This document shows positions 1 to 10,213 of a stretch of 64,000 bases of DNA, one piece after another. Source of the DNA: Hydrotalea sandarakina. GTDB taxonomy: Bacteria > Bacteroidota > Bacteroidia > Chitinophagales > Chitinophagaceae. How positions within the stretch are numbered: the stretch's first letter is position 1; each line of letters begins with the position of its first letter. The DNA is taken from contig NZ_QKZV01000006.1 in NCBI RefSeq assembly GCF_003254115.1, positions 124,001-188,000 of the forward strand, read 5' to 3'. The notes under the pieces were generated by a model. It made no database searches. It was given only the letters and a program-made list of their open reading frames with translations, and was not told where the DNA came from. The position numbers and the translations under genes were made by a program.

Positions 1-1119
1 TCAAAGAAAGAAAAAGAAAAAAAAGAGAAAGGAAAAAATCTGCTATCAGATGCGTCACTAAATTTTTTAAAAAATTACATTAATACCCCATCACCGGTTG
101 GTTTTGAGAGTAGCGGGCAAAAAATTTGGCTCGATTATATTAAAAATTACACCGATACAACATTCACAGATCCTTACGGTACAGCTGTTGGTGTAATAAA
201 CCCGAATGAAGATTTTAAAGTTGTAATTGAAGCCCATGCCGATGAAATAAGTTGGTTTGTTAACTACATTACTGATCAAGGTTTAATTTATTTAAAAAGA
301 AACGGCGGCGTTGACCATCAAATTGCCCCATCAATGCGTGTATTTATTCATGGCAAAAAAGGCCCTGTAAAAGCTGTGTTTGGATGGCCTGCTATTCATA
401 CCCGCAATGGCAGCAGCGATCAAAAAGAAACACAACCTAAAGTTGAAAACCTGTTTTTAGATTGTGGTGCCAGAAGCAAAAAAGAAGTGGAAGAGTTAGG
501 TATTCATGTTGGAGCCGTTGTTACTTATGTTGATGGTTTTGATGAATTAGCCAATGACTATTACATAGGAAGAGCATTTGACAATAGAATTGGTGGTTTT
601 ATGATTGCCGAAGTAGCGCGATTAATAAAAGAAAATAAAATTAAACTTCCCTTTGGATTATACATAGTGAATGCAGTTCAAGAAGAAATAGGATTACGAG
701 GCGCAGAAATGATTGCCAGAAGAATTAAACCGAATGTTGCCATCATTACTGATGTTACGCATGACACACAAACACCTATGATTAACAAAAACATTGAAGG
801 TGATGTTGCTTGTGGTAAAGGCCCCTCACCAACTTATGGTCCGGCAGTACACACAAAACTATTGCATTTGGTTGAAGAAGTGGCTGCAGCCAATGACATA
901 CCGTTACAAATGCGTGCTGTTAGCAGAAGTACAGGCACTGATACCGATAGCTTTGCTTATGCCAATGATGGATGTCCGAGCGTATTAATATCTATGCCTC
1001 TGCGATACATGCACACAACGGTAGAAATGATACATAAAAAAGATATTGAATACACTATTCAATTAATATATAAAACATTATTGGCTTTAACACCTAAAAC
1101 CAATTTAAGTTATTTTTAA
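1..1119 (+). CDS. M42 family metallo-aminopeptidase (5' end outside window)
   Basis: This is a dinuclear-metal aminopeptidase of the M42 (glutamyl aminopeptidase/endoglucanase-annotated) family. The frame is open from base 1, so the start codon lies upstream of the window. The first visible residues are a Lys/Glu-rich stretch, followed by the family N-terminus (SPVGFES). The expected metal and catalytic motifs appear in order: EAHADE (metal His and acidic partner), GRAFDNRIG (bridging Asp), QEEIGLRG (catalytic Glu pair), TDVTHDT (Asp) and MHTTVEM (C-terminal His). The next gene lies 60 bp downstream but has its own -7 box, so co-transcription is uncertain. The protein is probably cytoplasmic and trims N-terminal residues from peptides. 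Family assignment is firm; substrate is unknown. Confidence 0.93.
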   Translation, partial: SKKEKEKKEKGKNLLSDASLNFLKNYINTPSPVGFESSGQKIWLDYIKNYTDTTFTDPYGTAVGVINPNEDFKVVIEAHADEISWFVNYITDQGLIYLKRNGGVDHQIAPSMRVFIHGKKGPVKAVFGWPAIHTRNGSSDQKETQPKVENLFLDCGARSKKEVEELGIHVGAVVTYVDGFDELANDYYIGRAFDNRIGGFMIAEVARLIKENKIKLPFGLYIVNAVQEEIGLRGAEMIARRIKPNVAIITDVTHDTQTPMINKNIEGDVACGKGPSPTYGPAVHTKLLHLVEEVAAANDIPLQMRAVSRSTGTDTDSFAYANDGCPSVLISMPLRYMHTTVEMIHKKDIEYTIQLIYKTLLALTPKTNLSYF

Positions 1120-1167
1120 TAAAGCATGCCTAAACTCATTCATTCGGCAAACTGCTTTAAAATTCAG

Positions 1168-1175
1168 TAATTTTG
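1168..1175 (+). promoter_or_regulatory. -7 promoter box, 4 nt before ATG (probable leaderless start)
   Basis: TAATTTTG matches the Bacteroidota -7 consensus TAnnTTTG exactly. It ends four bases (ccgg) before the ATG at 1180, so the transcript would start at or next to the start codon. No good -33 TTTG is seen; TTCG at about 1143 is only a partial match. Confidence 0.5.
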
Positions 1176-1179
1176 CCGG

Positions 1180-2010
1180 ATGAATGAAGTTTTAGATGAA
1201 AAACGCATTGCCATACTAGATTTATACAATGGTGAACCCAATGAAGGCATGCGGTGTATTAAAGATTTAGTGGCAGCCTGGGGTATTAAGCATAATACCA
1301 AAATAAACATGCAGGTTTTTAATGTACGCCAAAACAATGCCATTCCCAATTTAAATTTCGATGCTTATATTTCAAGTGGTGGCCCCGGTTCGCCATTAGA
1401 AAGTGAAGGAAGCGATTGGGATAATACTTATATACACTGGCTACGTTCTGTTGAACAATTTAATAACAATACACAAGAAAGGCATAAAAAGAAACATATA
1501 CTTTTTATTTGCCATAGCTTTCAATTAGCTTGCCGCCATTATAAAGTTGGAACAGTATGTGAAAGAAAATCAACTTCTTTTGGCGTATTTCCGGTACATA
1601 TGCTTCCTGAGGGTAAACACGAGCCAATATTCAATGGATTACATGACCCTTTTTATGCCGTTGACAGTCGCGACTTTCAGGTAATAAAACCTAATCATGA
1701 ACAAATAAAAAAAATGGGGGGTGCATTTTTAGCCATCGAAAAAGAAAGACCACATGTTCCTTATGAAAGAGCCCTAATGGCTGTTCGCTTTAATGATTGT
1801 TTTGTAGGAACTCAATTTCATCCAGAAGCCGATGCAGTAGGTATGCAAATGTATCTGCAACGTGCCGACAAAAAGAAAGCGGTAATTGATGAACATGGTG
1901 AGGCTAAATGGGAAAGCATGGTGGCACAACTACAAGATCCTGATAAAATTATGTACACCTATAATCACATCATTCCCAACTTTCTAAGCTTCGCATTAAA
2001 AAACCATTAA
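1180..2010 (+). CDS. Class-I glutamine amidotransferase-like protein
   Basis: This 276-residue protein has the class-I glutamine amidotransferase (GATase1) fold. The triad is visible: Cys111 in the elbow FICHSFQLA, and His214/Glu216 in TQFHPEAD. An oxyanion-type segment SSGGPGSP lies near residue 67. The elbow is ICHSFQ rather than the usual GxCxGxQ, which marks a divergent branch near those annotated as GMP-synthase-like amidotransferases. No synthase domain is fused. It sits between an M42 peptidase and a protein with an ATP-grasp-like C-terminus, so it could supply ammonia to a ligase or hydrolyse a gamma-glutamyl bond. That role is inference. Confidence 0.8.
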   Translation: MNEVLDEKRIAILDLYNGEPNEGMRCIKDLVAAWGIKHNTKINMQVFNVRQNNAIPNLNFDAYISSGGPGSPLESEGSDWDNTYIHWLRSVEQFNNNTQERHKKKHILFICHSFQLACRHYKVGTVCERKSTSFGVFPVHMLPEGKHEPIFNGLHDPFYAVDSRDFQVIKPNHEQIKKMGGAFLAIEKERPHVPYERALMAVRFNDCFVGTQFHPEADAVGMQMYLQRADKKKAVIDEHGEAKWESMVAQLQDPDKIMYTYNHIIPNFLSFALKNH

Positions 2011-2084
2011 TAAAACTTTTATTGAATAGGTATTGGCAATATACTAATAGATAGAATGAATATACAAGTTATTCAACCCTTGAA

Positions 2085-2092
2085 TAACTTTG
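2085..2092 (+). promoter_or_regulatory. -7 promoter box for the ATP-grasp-like gene
   Basis: TAACTTTG matches TAnnTTTG exactly and lies 21 bp before the ATG at 2114. It suggests a short 5' leader and a promoter separate from that of the upstream amidotransferase gene. No TTTG is found at the ideal -33 spacing. Confidence 0.45.
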
Positions 2093-2113
2093 TGATACCA
2101 AATTATCATTAGC

Positions 2114-3313
2114 ATGATTCCAACTATTCGCGAGGCGTATAATAAAGCTTTTAATGAAGCATATTATGCTGATTTTTTAAACCAATTAAACAGCAAACAC
2201 CCCGGTGCTATTGATTTTAGAGTAGCGGAAACTCCCATTTTTATTCCTGCTGATTTTACAAAAAAAATGTTGGACACATGCGATTATATTATTGATAAAA
2301 TAACCGATCCCAATTTTAAGCAATTAACGCATAATGCTATTCCCAAACAATTGCACGTTCCTAATGAAACAAATTACAGTGCATTTATAGCATTCGACTT
2401 TGGCATTTGCATCAATGAAAAAGGTGAAATTGAACCGCAACTCATTGAAATGCAGGGATTTCCTTCTTTGTTTGCTTTTCAACTGTGGTATGATGAAGTA
2501 TTTCGTTCGCTGTATGATTTACCAAAAAATTTATCGCCTTTTTTAAATGGATATGATAAGGAAAAATACTTAGCATTACTTCGTAATATTATAGTTGGTA
2601 ACACTCCCGTTGAAAATGTAATACTTTTAGAACTATTTCCGCATGAACAAAAAACAAGAATAGATTTTTATTGCACAACTGATTATTTACAGATTAATAC
2701 AGTATGTCTTACAGAATTAATAAATGAAAATGGCCACTTATTTTATATTAGAAATGGGAAGAAAACACCGGTACTAAAAATTTATAATAGAATTATTTTT
2801 GACGAATTATTACAGCAAACCCCTACCGTTATAGAAAAAGCCAATCAAATATTTTTCAACAATGTTCATGCAGAATGGATACCGCATCCTAACTGGTTTT
2901 ATAGAATTAGTAAATACACACTGCCTTTTTTGAAACACCCAAACATTCCTGAAACAAAATTTTTAAGCAATATGAGCAGCTTACCTACTGATTTAAATAA
3001 TTATGTAGTGAAGCCTATTTTTTCATTTGCAGGGCAAGGCGTATTAATTGATGTTACAAAAGAGAACATTGCTGCCATCTCTGACCCGGAAAATTGGATT
3101 ATTCAACGCAAGGTAAATTATGCTGCCGTAATAGAAACGCCCAACTCGCCGGCAAAAGCGGAAATAAGGCTATTCTACTTTTGGGATGAAGGTTGGAACA
3201 AACCAAAGGCAGTAATGAATTTAGCACGATTAAGTAAAGGTAAAATGATTGGTACACGTTATAATAAAGATCTTGATTGGGTGGGCGGAACGATGGCATA
3301 TTTTGAACAATAA
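2114..3313 (+). CDS. Protein with ATP-grasp-like C-terminal region, function unknown
   Basis: This 399-residue soluble protein has no signal peptide. The C-terminal third resembles an ATP-grasp fold: VVKPIFSFAGQGV around Lys300 looks like the strand and nucleotide-binding loop (K-P followed by a Gly-rich turn), WIIQRKV like the adenine-contact strand, and AEIRLFYFW near residue 355 like the metal-binding Glu/Arg strand. The N-terminal two thirds are unrecognised. The gene follows a GATase1-like gene, and such pairings occur with amide or peptide ligases, so a carboxylate-amine ligase is the leading guess. The fold assignment is by eye and no substrate can be named. The start has its own -7 box upstream. 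Confidence 0.55.
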   Translation: MIPTIREAYNKAFNEAYYADFLNQLNSKHPGAIDFRVAETPIFIPADFTKKMLDTCDYIIDKITDPNFKQLTHNAIPKQLHVPNETNYSAFIAFDFGICINEKGEIEPQLIEMQGFPSLFAFQLWYDEVFRSLYDLPKNLSPFLNGYDKEKYLALLRNIIVGNTPVENVILLELFPHEQKTRIDFYCTTDYLQINTVCLTELINENGHLFYIRNGKKTPVLKIYNRIIFDELLQQTPTVIEKANQIFFNNVHAEWIPHPNWFYRISKYTLPFLKHPNIPETKFLSNMSSLPTDLNNYVVKPIFSFAGQGVLIDVTKENIAAISDPENWIIQRKVNYAAVIETPNSPAKAEIRLFYFWDEGWNKPKAVMNLARLSKGKMIGTRYNKDLDWVGGTMAYFEQ

Positions 3314-3340
3314 CATTTTTATGTTATAAAAATTAAAAAG

Positions 3341-4129
3341 ATGAAAAAACAATATTTACTCCTACTGTTTTGCATTGGTTTAATTAGGATTGGATTAGCA
3401 CAAGATAATTATGAAATTCAAGTGTATGGCTCACAAACACAACCTAAAAATTCAACCATGTTTGAATTACATAGCAACTTTACATTTGAAGGCGAGCGTG
3501 CAGTTGTTGACGGTGTGCGCCCCTCCTACCATGCAGAACATGAAACATTAGAAATAACAAATGGCATTACCGATAATTTTGAATTAGGCTTTTATTTATT
3601 TACCAATTACACAGCAGGGTATGGTTATCAAATAATTGGTTCACACATACGTCCCAGAATTATGGCACCCTTAAGTTGGCATTTACCGGTTGGATTAAGC
3701 TTATCTACTGAATTTGGATACCAAAGTAAATATTATTCACCTGATACATGGACCATTGAAATTAGACCCATTATAGATAAACAATGGAATAATTTGTATG
3801 TATCATTTAATCCAACAATGGGCATTGCATTAAAAGGAATTGACCAACACCAAGCCCCTGACTTTGAACCCAACTTAAAAGTTGCCTACCAATTTTTCAA
3901 AAATACAGACTTGGGTTTTGAATACTATGGTTCTGTTGGCCCCATTAATAACTTTGAACAATTACCACAAGAAAATCATGCTATTTTCTTAGCTTACGAT
4001 TTAGAAAACAATCCTAAATGGGAAGTAAATATTGGACCGGGATGGGGTTTAACACAAGCCACAGATCGTTTTATATTTAAAGTTCTAATTGGCAGAAAAA
4101 TTAAATGGGGTGAAAGAAGGCATTCCTAA
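3341..4129 (+). CDS. Putative small outer-membrane beta-barrel protein
   Basis: The 262-residue product starts with a classic signal peptide (MKKQYLLLLFCIGLIRIGLAQ). The mature part alternates polar and aromatic residues in short strands such as NFELGFYLFTNY, GLSLSTEFGYQ and DLGFEYYGSVGP, as in small outer-membrane barrels. The end is basic (GRKIKWGERRHS) rather than the aromatic C-terminus typical of many porins. It starts 27 bp after the ATP-grasp-like gene on the same strand and probably shares its transcript. I do not recognise a named family. An outer-membrane sensor or small-molecule channel is possible but unsupported. Confidence 0.6.
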   Translation: MKKQYLLLLFCIGLIRIGLAQDNYEIQVYGSQTQPKNSTMFELHSNFTFEGERAVVDGVRPSYHAEHETLEITNGITDNFELGFYLFTNYTAGYGYQIIGSHIRPRIMAPLSWHLPVGLSLSTEFGYQSKYYSPDTWTIEIRPIIDKQWNNLYVSFNPTMGIALKGIDQHQAPDFEPNLKVAYQFFKNTDLGFEYYGSVGPINNFEQLPQENHAIFLAYDLENNPKWEVNIGPGWGLTQATDRFIFKVLIGRKIKWGERRHS

Positions 4130-4178: not shown

Positions 4179-5318
4179 CTAATCTTCCATTTTGTTTTTT
4201 AATTTTCCCATTAATGCATATGCATTACCACCCGCCAACTGAACATTTAACCAATTAATGTTATTATTAGGCATAAGTTCAACGTAACCATTTTCACTAA
4301 TACCTGTTTTAACAGGAACTAATACATAGGTTTGTTTTTGTTGTTGAACAAACACATATTCCATTCCATTATATCGCACTACTGCACTTTCAGGAACTAC
4401 AATAGCATTATGACTGGTAACATTGAAAACACCTGTTAAAAACATACCCGGCAATAATTGATGGTTAGATTGTTCAAAATGACAATGCAGCAAACCGGTT
4501 CTGTTATCGTTTATATTTTTAGTTACTAAAATTACCTCTACATCATATTTTTTTGAAGTATCACTAGTTAAAAAAACTTTACCCGATATCCCTTTCTGAA
4601 ACATATCAATATCATGTTCAAAAACAGTCATAGCTGCATGAATGTCATTTGGATTCACTAATTCAAATATCACATCTGAAGGATTAACATATCGTCCAAT
4701 ATTAATATTCACCTTGGTAACATAACCATTAATCGGCGATAAAATGGGTACGGTTTTAGAAATATTTTGCGTACTTAATTGTTCCGGATTAATATTAATC
4801 ATTTTCAATTTTTCAGCAATAGCTTTTAAAGTAGCCAACTGAACATTGTATTCTGAAGATGTTTGCTGATAAGCCTTTTTACTGGTTGCATCCTGTTCAC
4901 TCAGTTCTTTTTGACGTTGTAAATCAGTTTCTAAGTAAGCAAGCTTAGCTTTTGCTACCAAATAATCCTGCTGCAATTGAACATAGCTTTGATCTTCCAT
5001 TAAAGCAATAACTTCACCTTTATGTACACTTGTACCCGGCAACAAATGTGTACTTTTTAAATAACCACCCAAAGGCATACTAACAGAAACCATACTTTGA
5101 GGTGGCACATCTACCACACCATTAATCGTAACAGTTTTATGCATTAATTTCTGAACCGGCTTTACTATTTGAATACCTGCATTACGATACTGAGTATCAT
5201 TTAATACCACTACGGTATCTGCAAAAGTTTGATCAGATTTTTGTTCTGTGTTTGTGCTAGGACTTTTACAGGCAACAAAAAAAGCAATAGAAAATAAAAT
5301 ATAATTAAATTTATTCAT
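4179..5318 (-). CDS. RND efflux periplasmic adaptor (CzcB/CusB type), lipoprotein
   Basis: This is the membrane-fusion subunit of a heavy-metal RND pump. It begins with a lipoprotein signal (lipobox FVAC, Cys17). A lipoyl-like hybrid motif (GYLKSTHLLPGTSVHKGEVIALMED) precedes a coiled-coil hairpin at about residues 110-175 (QQDYLVAKAKLAYLETDLQR). A second lipoyl half (VPILSPINGYVTKVNI), a beta-barrel and a membrane-proximal domain follow. At 379 residues it has normal length. It starts 10 bp after the stop of the CzcA-TolC gene, so it is the last gene of a three-gene operon. No His-rich metal-binding extension is seen, so metal specificity cannot be read here. Confidence 0.92.
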   Translation of the reverse strand: MNKFNYILFSIAFFVACKSPSTNTEQKSDQTFADTVVVLNDTQYRNAGIQIVKPVQKLMHKTVTINGVVDVPPQSMVSVSMPLGGYLKSTHLLPGTSVHKGEVIALMEDQSYVQLQQDYLVAKAKLAYLETDLQRQKELSEQDATSKKAYQQTSSEYNVQLATLKAIAEKLKMININPEQLSTQNISKTVPILSPINGYVTKVNINIGRYVNPSDVIFELVNPNDIHAAMTVFEHDIDMFQKGISGKVFLTSDTSKKYDVEVILVTKNINDNRTGLLHCHFEQSNHQLLPGMFLTGVFNVTSHNAIVVPESAVVRYNGMEYVFVQQQKQTYVLVPVKTGISENGYVELMPNNNINWLNVQLAGGNAYALMGKLKNKMED

Positions 5319-5328
5319 AAAATAAATT

Positions 5329-8300
5329 TTAATAAATTAAGTAATGAATTTCAGAAACAGCCATTTGTGTGTTATACAACGCACTTAAATATTCATTTTT
5401 TAATGTAATGGCTTGAGCTAACAATGTGCTCCACTCTATATAGCTAATAGCCCCCGTTTTATATTGTAAAGATGCTGTACTCAATAAAACCTCTGCTTGC
5501 TTTAAGCCACGATTTTGGTAATATTCAACTGCTGATAAATGTTTGTAATAGAGTTGCAAATACTTTTGAAGGGTAGTTTGTAATTGGCTTTGAACTGTTG
5601 TTGTTACTGCTTTAGCAGTAGCTTCATTCACCATAGCTGCTTCAATTCGAGCATGCTGGGCCTTAGCAAAAATAGGAATACCAATACCTATTGAATAAGA
5701 GGAAAATCGCGAGGCAGCATTATAATAATTCTCCACCCTATCCTTGGTTAGTTGCCATCCAACAATGGATTGATTATTGTATCCAATCATAAGATCAGGC
5801 AGCAATTTGGCTTTTTCAACTTTGGTTTGCATATTTGCCTGCTTTTGCTGCATTAATGCAACCTGAATAGCAGGGTGATTCAAAATCTTACTACTATCAA
5901 TTAAAATTTTTTCAGGCATTAAAATATCAGCCGGCTCAATAAGCAAAGGTTGTTGAATAAACAACTGCAATTGAAGTTGCGTAGATAATATATCGGAATT
6001 AATTTGCTTTAAATTGAGTACAATTTGATCTGCTGTATTTTCTAATGCAGTTTTTTCCAACAAATTGCTTTCTCCCTTTTCATATCGAAGGGTAGCAATG
6101 TTTTTATAATAGCTGTAAATACTATCTAATTTTTGTAACAAATACTTTTGCTCAGTTTGAAACTGCAATGTTATGTACAATTGTTCTACCATTTTTTTAA
6201 TATCCACCACTTGCAAATTGGTTTGTGCTTCTGCAATGGAAGTATTGGCTGCCAATAACTTTTTCATTGAGGCGTAATAACCCGGCAATGAAAAATTTTG
6301 CATAATCATAAAGCGTGTATCAAAAAACATGCTGTTATAGTTTCCCATTTCGGCATTGAATTGCGTTTTGGGTAACTCAGCAGCTGTGCGCTCCATAATT
6401 TTTTGATATTGTTGATTCAGCGTGGCTACTTTTAATGATGGTGCATTCTTTATTGCAATAGCCAAAACCTCATTCAAAGTAGCTTTTTGGTTAATTGGCT
6501 GTGCATACAAACTTGTTACACTGCTCATTGCAAGCACAATAAGTATAGATAACAATTTATTAGTTTTTGTTTTCTTCATGTTTACCTTTTTTGTTTCAAA
6601 CAGTAAATACAACGAGGGTAATACCAATAAGGTTAATAAGGTTGCAGTAATTAAACCGCCAATAACAACGGTAGCCAAAGGCCTTTGTACTTCTGCACCT
6701 GCACCTGTACTAATAGCCATTGGCAAAAACCCTAATGAAGCAACGGAAGCAGTCATTAAAACCGGGCGGAGTCGCACTTGCGTTGCCTGAATAATGATTT
6801 GAATTGTTGATTTTATACCGCTTAATTTCAAACGATTCATTTCACCTATTAGTACAATCCCGTTTAATACAGCTACTCCAAATAATGCAATGAAACCTAC
6901 ACCGGCAGAAATACTAAAAGGCATGCCGCGCAAATACAATGCAAACACACCGCCAATAGCAGATAAGGGAATAGCAGAAAAGATTAATAAAGCATATTTT
7001 ACATTTTGAAAGGCAAAATATAACATTAATAAAATTAACAATAATGCAACCGGTACAGCAATACTTAACCGTTGGGTTGCACGTTGCAAGTTTTCATATT
7101 GACCGCCATATGTAACATAGTAACCGGGCGGTAATTTTAATTGATTACCAACTTTATTTTGTAATTCATTCACAATACTTTCAACATCACGCCCTCTAAC
7201 ATTAAATCCTACTGTAATTCTACGATGTGCATCCTCTCTCTGTATTTGGTAGGGCCCATCTTTTATTTCAATATTGGCTAAATTACTTAAAGGAATTTGC
7301 TGTCCGCCAGCAACACCAATTTGTAAGTTATTAATGTTTTGAATGCTTTCGCGTTGCTGTTGATTTAAACGAATGACCAAATCATATCTTTTATCGCCTT
7401 CAAATACCAAACCGGCAATAGCACCGGCATAAGCAGCTTGCACTGCAGCATTAATATCACTAATATTTGCACCATATTTGGCAATAGCGTTTCTATTGTA
7501 TTGAATAACTATCTGAGGAACTCCGGTAACAGTTTCTACGTACAAATCACGTGCCCCCTTTACCGACTGAATGATATTACCAAGCGTAGTTGCAAAATGA
7601 GCCAGAGAATCTAAATCATCGCCAAAAATTTTGCAAACCACATCTTGTCTTGCACCTGTCATTAACTCATTGAACCGCATTTGAACAGGAAATTGGAAAC
7701 CGGTTGCAACGCCAGGTACTTGTTCTAACGCCTTACTCATTTTTTCTGCTAACTCATCAAATGAGTGAGCACTGGTCCATTTTGATTTATCTTTTAAAAT
7801 CACCATCATGTCAGCAGCTTCAACAGGCATAGGATCAGTAGGAATTTCGCCAGAGCCAATTTTAGTTACTACTTTCTCTACCTCCGGAAATTGATGCAAC
7901 AATACCCCTGCAGTTTTTTCGGTAGTGGCAATAGTATTGGTTAATGAAGATCCTGTTAATAAGCGAGTATCTACGGCAAAGTCGCCTTCTTCTAATTTAG
8001 GAATGAACTCACCACCCAATGTGCTTAACAACCATATACATACAATAAATACAAGGAAACTAACCGCAACAATTGTTTTTGGAATTTTCAAAACTTTTAT
8101 TAAAACCGGTTTATACCATTTTTGTAAACGGTTCATCATTCTATCAGAAAAATTTGCTTCATGGTTTACCTTCCTACTTAATACTAATGAAGCCATCATT
8201 GGAACATAGGTTAATGAAAGAATAAATGCACCCAGAATGGCAAAAGAAACTGTTTCAGCCATTGGTTTAAACATTTTACCTTCAATGCCTTGTAAACTTA

Positions 8301-9699
8301 AAATAGGCAGATAAACAATCAGTATAATAATTTGACCAAAGGCTGCTGAATTCATCATTTTACCTGCAGCATTTTCTACTTCAGCATTCATTTGCTGTTT
8401 ACTCAACTTAACAACATTTGAGTACTTATGTGTATGCACTATTTTGTGCATTACTGCTTCAACAATAATTACGGCCCCATCTACCAGTAATCCAAAATCA
8501 AGTGCACCTAAGCTCATTAAATTGCCGCTTACCCCAAAAAAATTCATCATTACAACGGCAAACAGCATACTTAAGGGTATAACAGAAGCTACAACAAGGC
8601 CTGAACGTAGGTTTCCTAAAAAAACAATTAAAACAAATAATACAATTATTGCCCCTTCCATTAAATTTTTCTGTACTGTTCCAATGGCATTATTAACCAT
8701 TTTAGTTCTGTCTAAAAAAGGGTCAATGACTATTCCTTCGGGTAACGATTTTTCAATTTCTTTAATGCGTTTTTTTATATTTCCAATTACCTGATTACTG
8801 TTACCCCCTTTTAGCATCATAACAACTGCACCTGCTACTTCGCTTTTATCGTTATAAACAGTTGCACCATATCTAATTGCTGTTCCATATCGAACATCGG
8901 CTACATCGCTTATTAATACGGGTATCCCATTATCGGTTTGCTTTACAACAATATTTTTAATATCGTTCAATGACTGCACCAACCCTTCTGTTCGAATAAA
9001 CAAAACATTTGGCCCCTTTTCAATATAGGCACCGCCTGTGTTTTGGTTATTCGAATTCATTGCTTTAAAAACATCGGCAATGGTTAATTGAAAACTTTTC
9101 AGTTTATCGGTGTTTATAGCAACCTCATACTGTTTTAGTTTTCCTCCAAAACTACTTACATCGGCAACCCCTTCAGTACCTAATAATTGTCGCCTAACAA
9201 TCCAATCTTGAATATCACGCAAATCGGCTAAGGAATATTTTCCTTCATAACCTGCCTTGTGCCTTACAACATATTGAAATACTTCACCCAAACCTGTTGT
9301 TACCGGACCTAATTCCGGCGTTCCAATTCCGGGTGGTATGATAGATTGAACTTTAACCAGCCGTTCACTAATTTGTTGCCGTGCCCAATAAATATCTGTA
9401 TTGTCATCAAATACAATTGTTACTAAACTTAAACCAAACCTCGAAAAACTGCGTTGTTCAGTTATTCCCGGAACATTTCGCGTAGCCTGCTCAATAGGTA
9501 CTGTAATGAGTCGTTCCACATCGGGAGCGCCTAAACTTGGGGCTGTGGTAATAATTAAAACCTGATTATTAGTAATATCGGGAACGGCATCAATTGGTAA
9601 TTTGGTAAGTGAATATGTGCCATATCCTACCCATGCCAATAATAATATTCCAATAATCAGTTTGTTCCGAACTGAAAATTGAATAATTGCGTTTAGCAT
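5329..9699 (-). CDS. Heavy-metal efflux RND permease (CzcA-like) fused to a TolC-type outer-membrane channel
   Basis: The N-terminal part of about 1040 residues is a complete HME-RND proton antiporter, with TM1 near the start, the TM4 signature LGALDFGLLVDGAVIIVE and a second porter half. DFGxxVDGAV is typical of divalent-cation pumps (Czc/Cnr types) rather than Cu/Ag pumps, which carry a different TM4 motif. The chain then runs in frame into MKKTKTNKLLSILIVLAM...AQ, an internal signal-peptide-like segment (Met codon at 6577-6579), followed by about 400 residues of TolC-family helical repeats. The ATG at 9699 (MLNAIIQFSV) is chosen because family members begin there; an in-frame start eight codons upstream adds nothing recognisable. 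RND-TolC fusions are known in Bacteroidota. Confidence 0.92.
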   Translation of the reverse strand: MLNAIIQFSVRNKLIIGILLLAWVGYGTYSLTKLPIDAVPDITNNQVLIITTAPSLGAPDVERLITVPIEQATRNVPGITEQRSFSRFGLSLVTIVFDDNTDIYWARQQISERLVKVQSIIPPGIGTPELGPVTTGLGEVFQYVVRHKAGYEGKYSLADLRDIQDWIVRRQLLGTEGVADVSSFGGKLKQYEVAINTDKLKSFQLTIADVFKAMNSNNQNTGGAYIEKGPNVLFIRTEGLVQSLNDIKNIVVKQTDNGIPVLISDVADVRYGTAIRYGATVYNDKSEVAGAVVMMLKGGNSNQVIGNIKKRIKEIEKSLPEGIVIDPFLDRTKMVNNAIGTVQKNLMEGAIIVLFVLIVFLGNLRSGLVVASVIPLSMLFAVVMMNFFGVSGNLMSLGALDFGLLVDGAVIIVEAVMHKIVHTHKYSNVVKLSKQQMNAEVENAAGKMMNSAAFGQIIILIVYLPILSLQGIEGKMFKPMAETVSFAILGAFILSLTYVPMMASLVLSRKVNHEANFSDRMMNRLQKWYKPVLIKVLKIPKTIVAVSFLVFIVCIWLLSTLGGEFIPKLEEGDFAVDTRLLTGSSLTNTIATTEKTAGVLLHQFPEVEKVVTKIGSGEIPTDPMPVEAADMMVILKDKSKWTSAHSFDELAEKMSKALEQVPGVATGFQFPVQMRFNELMTGARQDVVCKIFGDDLDSLAHFATTLGNIIQSVKGARDLYVETVTGVPQIVIQYNRNAIAKYGANISDINAAVQAAYAGAIAGLVFEGDKRYDLVIRLNQQQRESIQNINNLQIGVAGGQQIPLSNLANIEIKDGPYQIQREDAHRRITVGFNVRGRDVESIVNELQNKVGNQLKLPPGYYVTYGGQYENLQRATQRLSIAVPVALLLILLMLYFAFQNVKYALLIFSAIPLSAIGGVFALYLRGMPFSISAGVGFIALFGVAVLNGIVLIGEMNRLKLSGIKSTIQIIIQATQVRLRPVLMTASVASLGFLPMAISTGAGAEVQRPLATVVIGGLITATLLTLLVLPSLYLLFETKKVNMKKTKTNKLLSILIVLAMSSVTSLYAQPINQKATLNEVLAIAIKNAPSLKVATLNQQYQKIMERTAAELPKTQFNAEMGNYNSMFFDTRFMIMQNFSLPGYYASMKKLLAANTSIAEAQTNLQVVDIKKMVEQLYITLQFQTEQKYLLQKLDSIYSYYKNIATLRYEKGESNLLEKTALENTADQIVLNLKQINSDILSTQLQLQLFIQQPLLIEPADILMPEKILIDSSKILNHPAIQVALMQQKQANMQTKVEKAKLLPDLMIGYNNQSIVGWQLTKDRVENYYNAASRFSSYSIGIGIPIFAKAQHARIEAAMVNEATAKAVTTTVQSQLQTTLQKYLQLYYKHLSAVEYYQNRGLKQAEVLLSTASLQYKTGAISYIEWSTLLAQAITLKNEYLSALYNTQMAVSEIHYLIY

Positions 9700-9823
9700 A
9701 ATTAATACATTAAAAACATACACCTATAAGCATAAGGTATGCTGAAAATTGAAAAAATAAAATAAATAATTAATACAAGTTTTTTACAAAATATGTACTA
9801 ATAAGAAATAGAAGCATTATGAA

Positions 9824-10213
9824 TTATGCAAGACGCGGAGGTTGGAATATATCGTGCAGAAAGGTAAAAGAATATACTTGTTGGGTTTCTATACTAAAAG
9901 TTTTCTGTGAGTAAGGTATTACAAGCACTTGAACGGAAATGGGCTTGGAAGGCATACTCACAAAACCAAACATGAAAGCATTGGCAGATTGCTGTGTTTT
10001 AAAGGGTAATTGCTGGTCTTGCTGCCAGTCATCATCAATAATTAATTTCTTATTGTAATGTAATTTTAAAAAAGATAGGAATGAAATTTCCGGATTTTCA
10101 CTACGATGTTGGAGATAATGCTCCACCAACAATGGCAACTTCAGTAACTGATATGCCTCAGTTGACCCAAATAAAAAAATACAAAATAATGCTATGGTTG
10201 CCATTTTTTTCAT
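9824..10213 (-). CDS. Small exported protein leading the metal-efflux operon
   Basis: This 129-residue protein has an N-terminal hydrophobic signal (MKKMATIALFCIFLFGSTEA) and no recognised domain. It ends in FLHDIFQPPRLA, a C-terminal Pro-Pro motif I associate with small proteins heading cation-efflux operons in Bacteroidota; that association is from memory, not a search. Several His and Asp residues (HYLQH, IIDDDW) could bind metal, but no clear site is visible. The ATG at 10213 is preferred to an in-frame GTG six bases upstream because it gives a cleaner signal peptide. It lies 124 bp upstream of the pump gene on the same strand. Confidence 0.65.
   Translation of the reverse strand: MKKMATIALFCIFLFGSTEAYQLLKLPLLVEHYLQHRSENPEISFLSFLKLHYNKKLIIDDDWQQDQQLPFKTQQSANAFMFGFVSMPSKPISVQVLVIPYSQKTFSIETQQVYSFTFLHDIFQPPRLA

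Follow-up and report, generated by a model that had tools for sequence, protein, structure and literature searches.

In glutathionylspermidine synthetase (GspS), a ligase is joined to a cysteine amidase half, and two Escherichia coli proteins, YgiC and YjfC, are reportedly peptide-spermidine ligases (work attributed to Pederick, 2023). On the scale of operons, Iyer et al. in 2009 are said to have described multi-amidoligase neighbourhoods with several amidoligases and peptidases per operon; their study, which we take to be reference 16 of PMC4431377 (the numbering is unconfirmed), may already include the operon discussed here. The system described below resembles those neighbourhoods in bringing several amidoligases and peptidases into one operon. 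It came to attention in a 64,000-nucleotide stretch of the 3.27 Mb genome of Hydrotalea sandarakina (G000:C6:124001-188000, called the window throughout; handles beginning with G, C and L denote genomes, contigs and loci). The window opens with a row of four intact plus-strand open reading frames (ORFs), located as in the first-pass annotation and spaced by 60, 103 and 27 bases, which encode an M42 aminopeptidase, a protein of the class-I glutamine amidotransferase (GATase) fold, an ATP-grasp ligase and a predicted outer-membrane protein (Table 1). On balance we favor the view that the GATase-fold protein and the ligase are one half of a multi-ligase pathway, with a RimK-like ATP-grasp enzyme and a GCS2 carboxylate-amine ligase as the other half, and that the pathway builds a peptide or peptide-amine conjugate.

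According to one paper, which credits its reference 16, ATP-grasp and COOH-NH2 ligases have been seen linked in multiple instances and often act in succession (PMC4431377). Another names YgiC and YjfC peptidylpolyamine synthetases and assigns Cp1B to the fungal E-64 pathway (PMC12568646). A third deals with graspetides and has no bearing on the present system (PMC8939145). Our literature search, which had most subscription journals outside its reach, found no paper on this operon.

Fold and conserved residues of the two core enzymes

No Pfam model reached its cut-off with the ligase (ATPgrasp_ST, 13.3 bits against 31.4; TTL, 13.1 against 20.1; GSP_synth, 12.1 against 29.3), an NCBIfam search gave no match, and a search of PDB sequences with a 19-sequence profile returned YgiC as the sole match (E 0.045). 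The closest named relative among the matches listed comes from a Chitinophagaceae metagenome-assembled genome and is 65% identical. Structure prediction from a 47-sequence alignment yielded a confident model (pLDDT 93.2, pTM 0.92) whose best structural match is YgiC (Z 25.7, rmsd 3.5, 346 of 399 residues), with further matches to YjfC (Z 25.6), homoglutathione synthetase (24.9), human glutathione synthetase (24.5), GspS (24.2) and Cp1B (23.0). Altogether 26 glutathione-synthetase/GspS-type entries match the model at Z 20.1-25.7, past which the ranking falls to a putative gamma-glutamylcysteine synthetase (Z 13.1) and then to LysX (8.2) and lower. The first-pass annotation had proposed an ATP-grasp ligase preceded by about 270 unrecognized residues and had named a predicted structure devoid of that fold as the result that would speak against it. 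The prediction gave no such result, and the ATP-grasp assignment stands, by structure rather than by family model; the extra N-terminal domain does not, because the fold matches span residues 1-399, which places those 270 residues within the glutathione-synthetase/GspS fold. As modeled, the ligase is one complete ATP-grasp of that fold.

Asp95, Glu112, Lys300, Glu350 and Arg352 of the ligase are invariant in both the 19- and the 47-sequence alignments. In a MAFFT alignment with YgiC and GspS, whose low identity limits residue-level claims, Glu112, Lys300 and Arg352 stand opposite the same residues of both proteins, and Pro301, invariant in the 19 sequences as part of Lys300-Pro301, likewise aligns with its YgiC/GspS counterpart; we take Lys300-Pro301 to be the Lys-Pro of the ATP site and Glu112 to be the Glu of the Mg site. 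Gln114, invariant in the same 19 sequences, stands at an Asn of YgiC and GspS that is presumably the Asn of the ExN Mg site. None of the 19 sequences has an Arg two residues ahead of Asp95, in a register that is unsure and sets Asp95 two columns off the Asp of the RxD motif, the Arg of which we take to be a functional residue of GspS. The N-terminal cysteine amidase domain of GspS is absent from the ligase, whose 399 residues correspond to the synthetase part only.

The GATase1 identity proposed for the preceding gene is borne out, its product scoring above the PF00117 cut-off of 22.8 bits, and its nucleophile elbow had been read correctly as ICHSFQ. The elbow is indeed atypical, as a family signature rather than a lesion: [FL][IV]C[HY]S[FY]Q occurs in 108 of 108 ORFs of the family, QFHPE in 107 and SGGP[GS]S in 80 (duplicates counted). 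Cys111, His214 and Glu216, together with a GGPG loop, are invariant across 23 aligned sequences, the window's included. The protein has the Cys-His-Glu triad of class-I glutamine amidotransferases and lacks their elbow, which we take to be GxCxGxQ in its usual form. The nearest folds of its structure model (pLDDT 80.1, from nine sequences) are MetA (Z 21.0) and Arabidopsis gamma-glutamyl peptidase 1 (Z 20.0), with several amidotransferases close behind at Z 18-20. The modeled fold alone would be compatible with an ammonia donor, a hydrolase or an acyltransferase and does not decide among them.

Table 1. Coordinates of the window's first four genes, of their conserved codons and of associated genes at other loci.
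Feature	Location	Strand	Basis or remark
M42 family aminopeptidase	1..1119	+	PF05343, E 2.3e-74; lineage-specific neighbor
Class-I GATase-fold protein, 276 aa	1180..2010	+	PF00117, 34.9 bits; core of system
Glutathione-synthetase/GspS-fold ATP-grasp ligase, 399 aa	2114..3313	+	Predicted structure; core of system
Predicted outer-membrane protein, 262 aa	3341..4129	+	Without Pfam or NCBIfam match; probably outside system
GATase Cys111 codon	1510-1512	+	Predicted catalytic, from invariance
GATase His214 codon	1819-1821	+	Predicted catalytic, from invariance
GATase Glu216 codon	1825-1827	+	Predicted catalytic, from invariance
Ligase Asp95 codon	2396-2398	+	Invariant residue
Ligase Glu112 codon	2447-2449	+	Invariant residue
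Ligase Lys300 codon	3011-3013	+	Invariant residue
Ligase Glu350 codon	3161-3163	+	Invariant residue
Ligase Arg352 codon	3167-3169	+	Invariant residue
RimK-like ATP-grasp and GCS2 carboxylate-amine ligase	L183:7983-8933 and 8971-10077 (contig C3)		Profile matches
Gene X, example	L208:7470-8825		CP_ATPgrasp_2-like

Partner ligases, shared operons and exchange of parts

A RimK-type or carboxylate-amine ligase partner had been suspected beyond the left edge of the window. Such partners exist, but not there: no RimK-like or GCS2 partner was seen among the ORFs of the 12 kb upstream of the window, and RimK-like and GCS2 matches in this genome are confined to contig C3, where the two lie adjacent to each other together with a divergent esterase, which rules out the left-edge location. 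The GCS2 protein scores 527 bits against an NCBIfam carboxylate-amine ligase cut-off of 371, and the RimK-like protein 31.7 bits with TIGR00768 (RimK), under the cut-off of 143.4. The window itself has one ligase in its row, whereas in other lineages two or more different ligases share an operon. At eight loci (L147, L148, L152, L153, L156, L187, L188 and L189) the order is RimK-like, GCS2, GATase and, last, the ligase, with an esterase-fold gene at the head of every operon except that of L152. RimK-like adjoins GCS2 in 16 of 20 stretches fetched from relatives, and peptidases or esterases of the M17, M42 and PF00756 families recur near the system. E. coli ygiC (NC_000913), unlike the genes of the window's ligase family, lies beside ygiB and ygiD with no other ligases adjoining.

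Neighbors were counted in the 80 closest named loci of at least 395 confirmed, the denominators being loci with enough flank, and the GATase gene adjoins the ligase gene in 62/77. A search of the phylum gave a similar picture in its 29 best new loci (23/29, counted by hand with the window itself included), and 11 of the 18 non-self relatives first examined have a same-strand GATase gene at most 1.5 kb upstream of the ligase; among 40 further loci chosen for diversity, the two are neighbors in just 12. By coordinates, they are adjacent on the same strand in 40 of 55 sampled genomes that have both.

Co-occurrence was assessed in a sample of 296 Bacteroidota genomes, from which one ligase match at E 5e-4 was excluded and RimK-like matches were cut at E 1e-80, eight weaker ones being dropped (G198, G089, G083, G212, G216, G252, G017 and G123, the last two at about 1e-68). 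The ligase is present in 92 genomes, GCS2 in 103 and RimK-like in 106; of the ligase genomes, 87 also have GCS2, 89 have RimK-like and 84 have both (Fisher p 2e-51 for ligase and GCS2, 9e-54 for ligase and RimK-like, both inflated by genome kinship). As a control, an M29 paralogue that occurs in only part of these lineages coincided with the ligase in just 16/33 (p 0.02). In one genus (g51), GCS2 accompanies the ligase in each of the three ligase-positive genomes, of which one is without RimK-like, and none of the six listed ligase-negative genomes is among the GCS2 matches. Among 39 close relatives, the ligase overlaps GCS2 in 18/19, the mismatches being two incomplete genomes, and RimK-like in 17/19 (weak RimK-like matches in G017, G026, G027 and G028 dropped).

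The GATase, found in 70 of the 296 genomes with all matches at 347 bits or more, is accompanied by the ligase in 55 and, in the remaining 15, by a different gene, here called gene X. Gene X encodes a protein of about 450 residues and in 14 of the 15 is flanked by RimK-like and GATase; in the other, G326, it is beside RimK-like, with the GATase on another contig. It is CP_ATPgrasp_2-like (over the cut-off in two of four tested), and its profile matches PDB 3n6x, a putative GspS that the fold of the window's ligase matches too (Z 23.6). A search with gene X returned exactly those 15 genomes and one divergent match in G173, which has the ligase too. Every sampled GATase (70/70) is thus accompanied by one or other circularly permuted ATP-grasp. 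Since gene X precedes the GATase gene and the ligase follows it, the exchange is one within the operon and not at one position, and the idea that gene X occupies the ligase's own place was rejected. Seven of the 15 gene X genomes have GCS2, never between RimK-like and GATase, and eight are without it. A profile comparison of gene X with the ligase by hhalign, made from shallow alignments, was not significant (probability 3.9%), and direct comparison of the GATase and RimK-like profiles gave nothing meaningful.

A second exchange concerns the GATase itself. A clade of M29 aminopeptidases occurs in six genomes, none of which has the GATase; in five it lies between GCS2 and the ligase, the operon slot that the GATase has in other genomes, and in the sixth elsewhere (the position in G091 was taken from coordinates).

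Other genes keep company with the system in particular lineages. A Ddl-like ATP-grasp recurs by the operon in L147, L153, L154, L169, L189 and L203, joined in L147, L153, L154 and L189 by an M17 aminopeptidase (both by Pfam in L147 only). A metal hydrolase of the Amidohydro_3 type adjoins the ligase in lineages without GATase (L136, L140 and L162-L166; by Pfam in L165, by clustering in the others), and one lies upstream of the GATase in L185 (L185:6237-7865). In a distant relative, a single 867-residue frame (L131:5637-8237) combines the ligase with a sodium:solute symporter (SSF), and in L132 and L135 an SSF gene directly precedes that of the ligase. At L220:6215-8074, a 237-residue ORF comes after a more distant homologue of GCS2 and begins, as judged by eye, like a class-I GATase-fold hydrolase.

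Bystanders and flanking genes

The first-pass annotation had treated the four genes as one row and pointed to a survey of related genomes as its check. In that survey the pair proved conserved, whereas for the outer genes the answer was that they are not neighbors: in the closest loci, M42 is next to the pair in 16/74 and the outer-membrane protein next to the ligase in 3/75 (8/75 anywhere in the flank). These counts rule out both as conserved parts of the system, and the two genes look like bystanders for the most part. The M42 identity itself is well founded (Table 1). For the outer-membrane protein, Pfam and NCBIfam gave nothing up to E 1, and its barrel and export are suggested by the appearance of the sequence.

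The ATG of the M42 gene is the three bases immediately left of the window (L002:11998), 12 bases past a 306-residue ORF; this ORF and a 162-residue one, both upstream, are without a Pfam match at E 1e-5. Also upstream lie genes for a LuxE-like acyl-protein synthetase (L002:9588-10556, minus strand) and a deoxyribodipyrimidine photolyase-related protein (L002:7708-9189, minus strand). A promoter scan did no better than shuffled sequences (35 against 33.9), and a terminator scan found none. Elsewhere in the window, a 1464-residue ORF on the minus strand (5329-9723) is a fused efflux system. It unites an RND transporter, present in full (ACR_tran, residues 13-1042), with an outer-membrane efflux protein (OEP), and its neighbor at 4179-5318 encodes an HlyD-type adaptor.

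A proposed pathway and its alternatives

The ligase fold, the operons, the co-occurrence and the exchange of parts are what the data show; the order of reactions, the substrates, the role of the GATase-fold protein and the small-molecule nature of the product we infer. Three different amide-forming ligases that travel together suggest the stepwise building of a peptide-like compound. GCS2 would activate a carboxylate, which in the GCS2 family is the gamma-carboxylate of glutamate, and couple it to an amine; the RimK-like enzyme would then add an amino acid; and the glutathione-synthetase-fold ligase would finish the chain by attaching one more amino acid or an amine to the acid built so far, a final step assigned by analogy because glutathione synthetase, GspS and YgiC act in this way. 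The Cys-His-Glu enzyme of the GATase fold would work beside the ligase, most likely as a hydrolase that trims or recycles the amide, a role favored because its operon place can hold a peptidase and, by analogy, because GspS joins its ligase with a cysteine amidase. The peptidases and esterases that recur near the system also fit a hydrolase.

The proposed pathway is like that of glutathione and glutathionylspermidine (GshA, GshB and GspS) in having a ligase of the glutamate-amine type, an ATP-grasp enzyme and a GspS-fold ligase, and like GspS in pairing the ligase with a putative cysteine amidase. It differs in that the first ligase is of the GCS2/YbdK type, the second RimK-like and the third a divergent GspS-fold enzyme, with a GATase-fold protein where GspS has its fused amidase, and with ExQ instead of ExN at the Mg site. 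YgiC and YjfC, although the best structural matches of the ligase, are only 12-14% identical to it; the model shares the YgiC fold, and peptide-spermidine ligation itself would follow by analogy only. Cp1B is another ATP-grasp of the same fold and acts in a small-peptide pathway; unlike the window's ligase it is fungal, and its partner enzymes belong to other families.

Several observations weigh against the multi-ligase pathway. In H. sandarakina its two halves lie on different contigs. The GATase and ligase genes are divergent in 1 and apart in 14 of the 55 genomes having both, the GATase adjoins GCS2 and not the ligase in L200 and L191, and many distant families have the ligase amid varied neighbors. 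Five of the 92 ligase genomes lack GCS2 and 37 lack the GATase, RimK-like is missing from two relatives with complete genomes and the ligase, G012 and G018, and the ligase is absent from 16 GCS2 genomes and from 17 RimK-like genomes, 15 of the latter having gene X. RimK-like is present in 69 of the 70 GATase genomes and may therefore be the GATase's partner, and since 12 of the 70 are without GCS2, taking off a glutamate added by GCS2 cannot be all that the GATase does. Genome kinship inflates all the co-occurrence p-values, and with Gln in place of the Mg-site Asn of GspS and YgiC, the substrate need not resemble glutathione. Our confidence is lowered in particular because gene X does not stand in the ligase's place and because RimK-like is tied equally closely to the GATase.

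The foremost alternative, which we regard as possible though clearly less probable, is that the GATase is a true glutamine amidotransferase that channels ammonia to a ligase, so that the product ends in a primary amide. The invariant triad and GGPG loop, the PF00117 score, the constant company of a circularly permuted ATP-grasp and the overlapping or abutting genes of several operons are all consistent with it. Against this, 37 of the 92 ligases manage without a GATase, an M29 peptidase can occupy its place, the usual GxCxGxQ elbow is replaced throughout the family, and the nearest folds include MetA and gamma-glutamyl peptidase, level with true amidotransferases. Protein modification, in which the RimK-like and other ligases would attach a peptide or amine tag and hydrolases would take it off, we consider unlikely: the sub-cut-off RimK-family similarity and the peptidases that recur near the system speak for it, whereas GCS2 and glutathione-synthetase-fold enzymes are generally known mainly for small substrates, and no conserved target protein was noticed in the neighborhoods read, among which no systematic search for one was made. 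The idea that unrelated housekeeping genes merely happen to lie side by side here fits the outer-membrane protein and largely M42, but is refuted for the pair by its conserved adjacency and the co-occurrence of the wider set, and is very improbable overall.

Two further ideas were set aside. A substitute for a missing thiol is weakened by the presence of BshC in the genome (337.6 bits, cut-off 27), which makes bacillithiol likely and a general thiol role for the system less so. A defense or phage origin was rejected, as PADLOC at E 0.001 gave no defense match for the GATase, ligase, RimK-like or GCS2 proteins, PHROG no phage match for the GATase and ligase, and a plasmid search no match for the ligase.

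In roughly one in three of the Bacteroidota sampled, the multi-ligase set probably links amino acids or amines to give a small compound of peptide-like nature. The ligase family occurs in 92 of the 296 genomes, and its member in the window passes no Pfam or NCBIfam cut-off. The swap of ligase families beside the GATase makes a pair of enzymes available for comparison. More speculatively, the product may be a widespread, undescribed peptide-amine conjugate of Bacteroidota, an analogue of glutathionylspermidine made by GCS2, the RimK-like enzyme and either family of circularly permuted ATP-grasp, and dismantled by the GATase-fold or M29 hydrolase. If one shared compound is made, a major bacterial phylum would have a common metabolite that has so far escaped notice.

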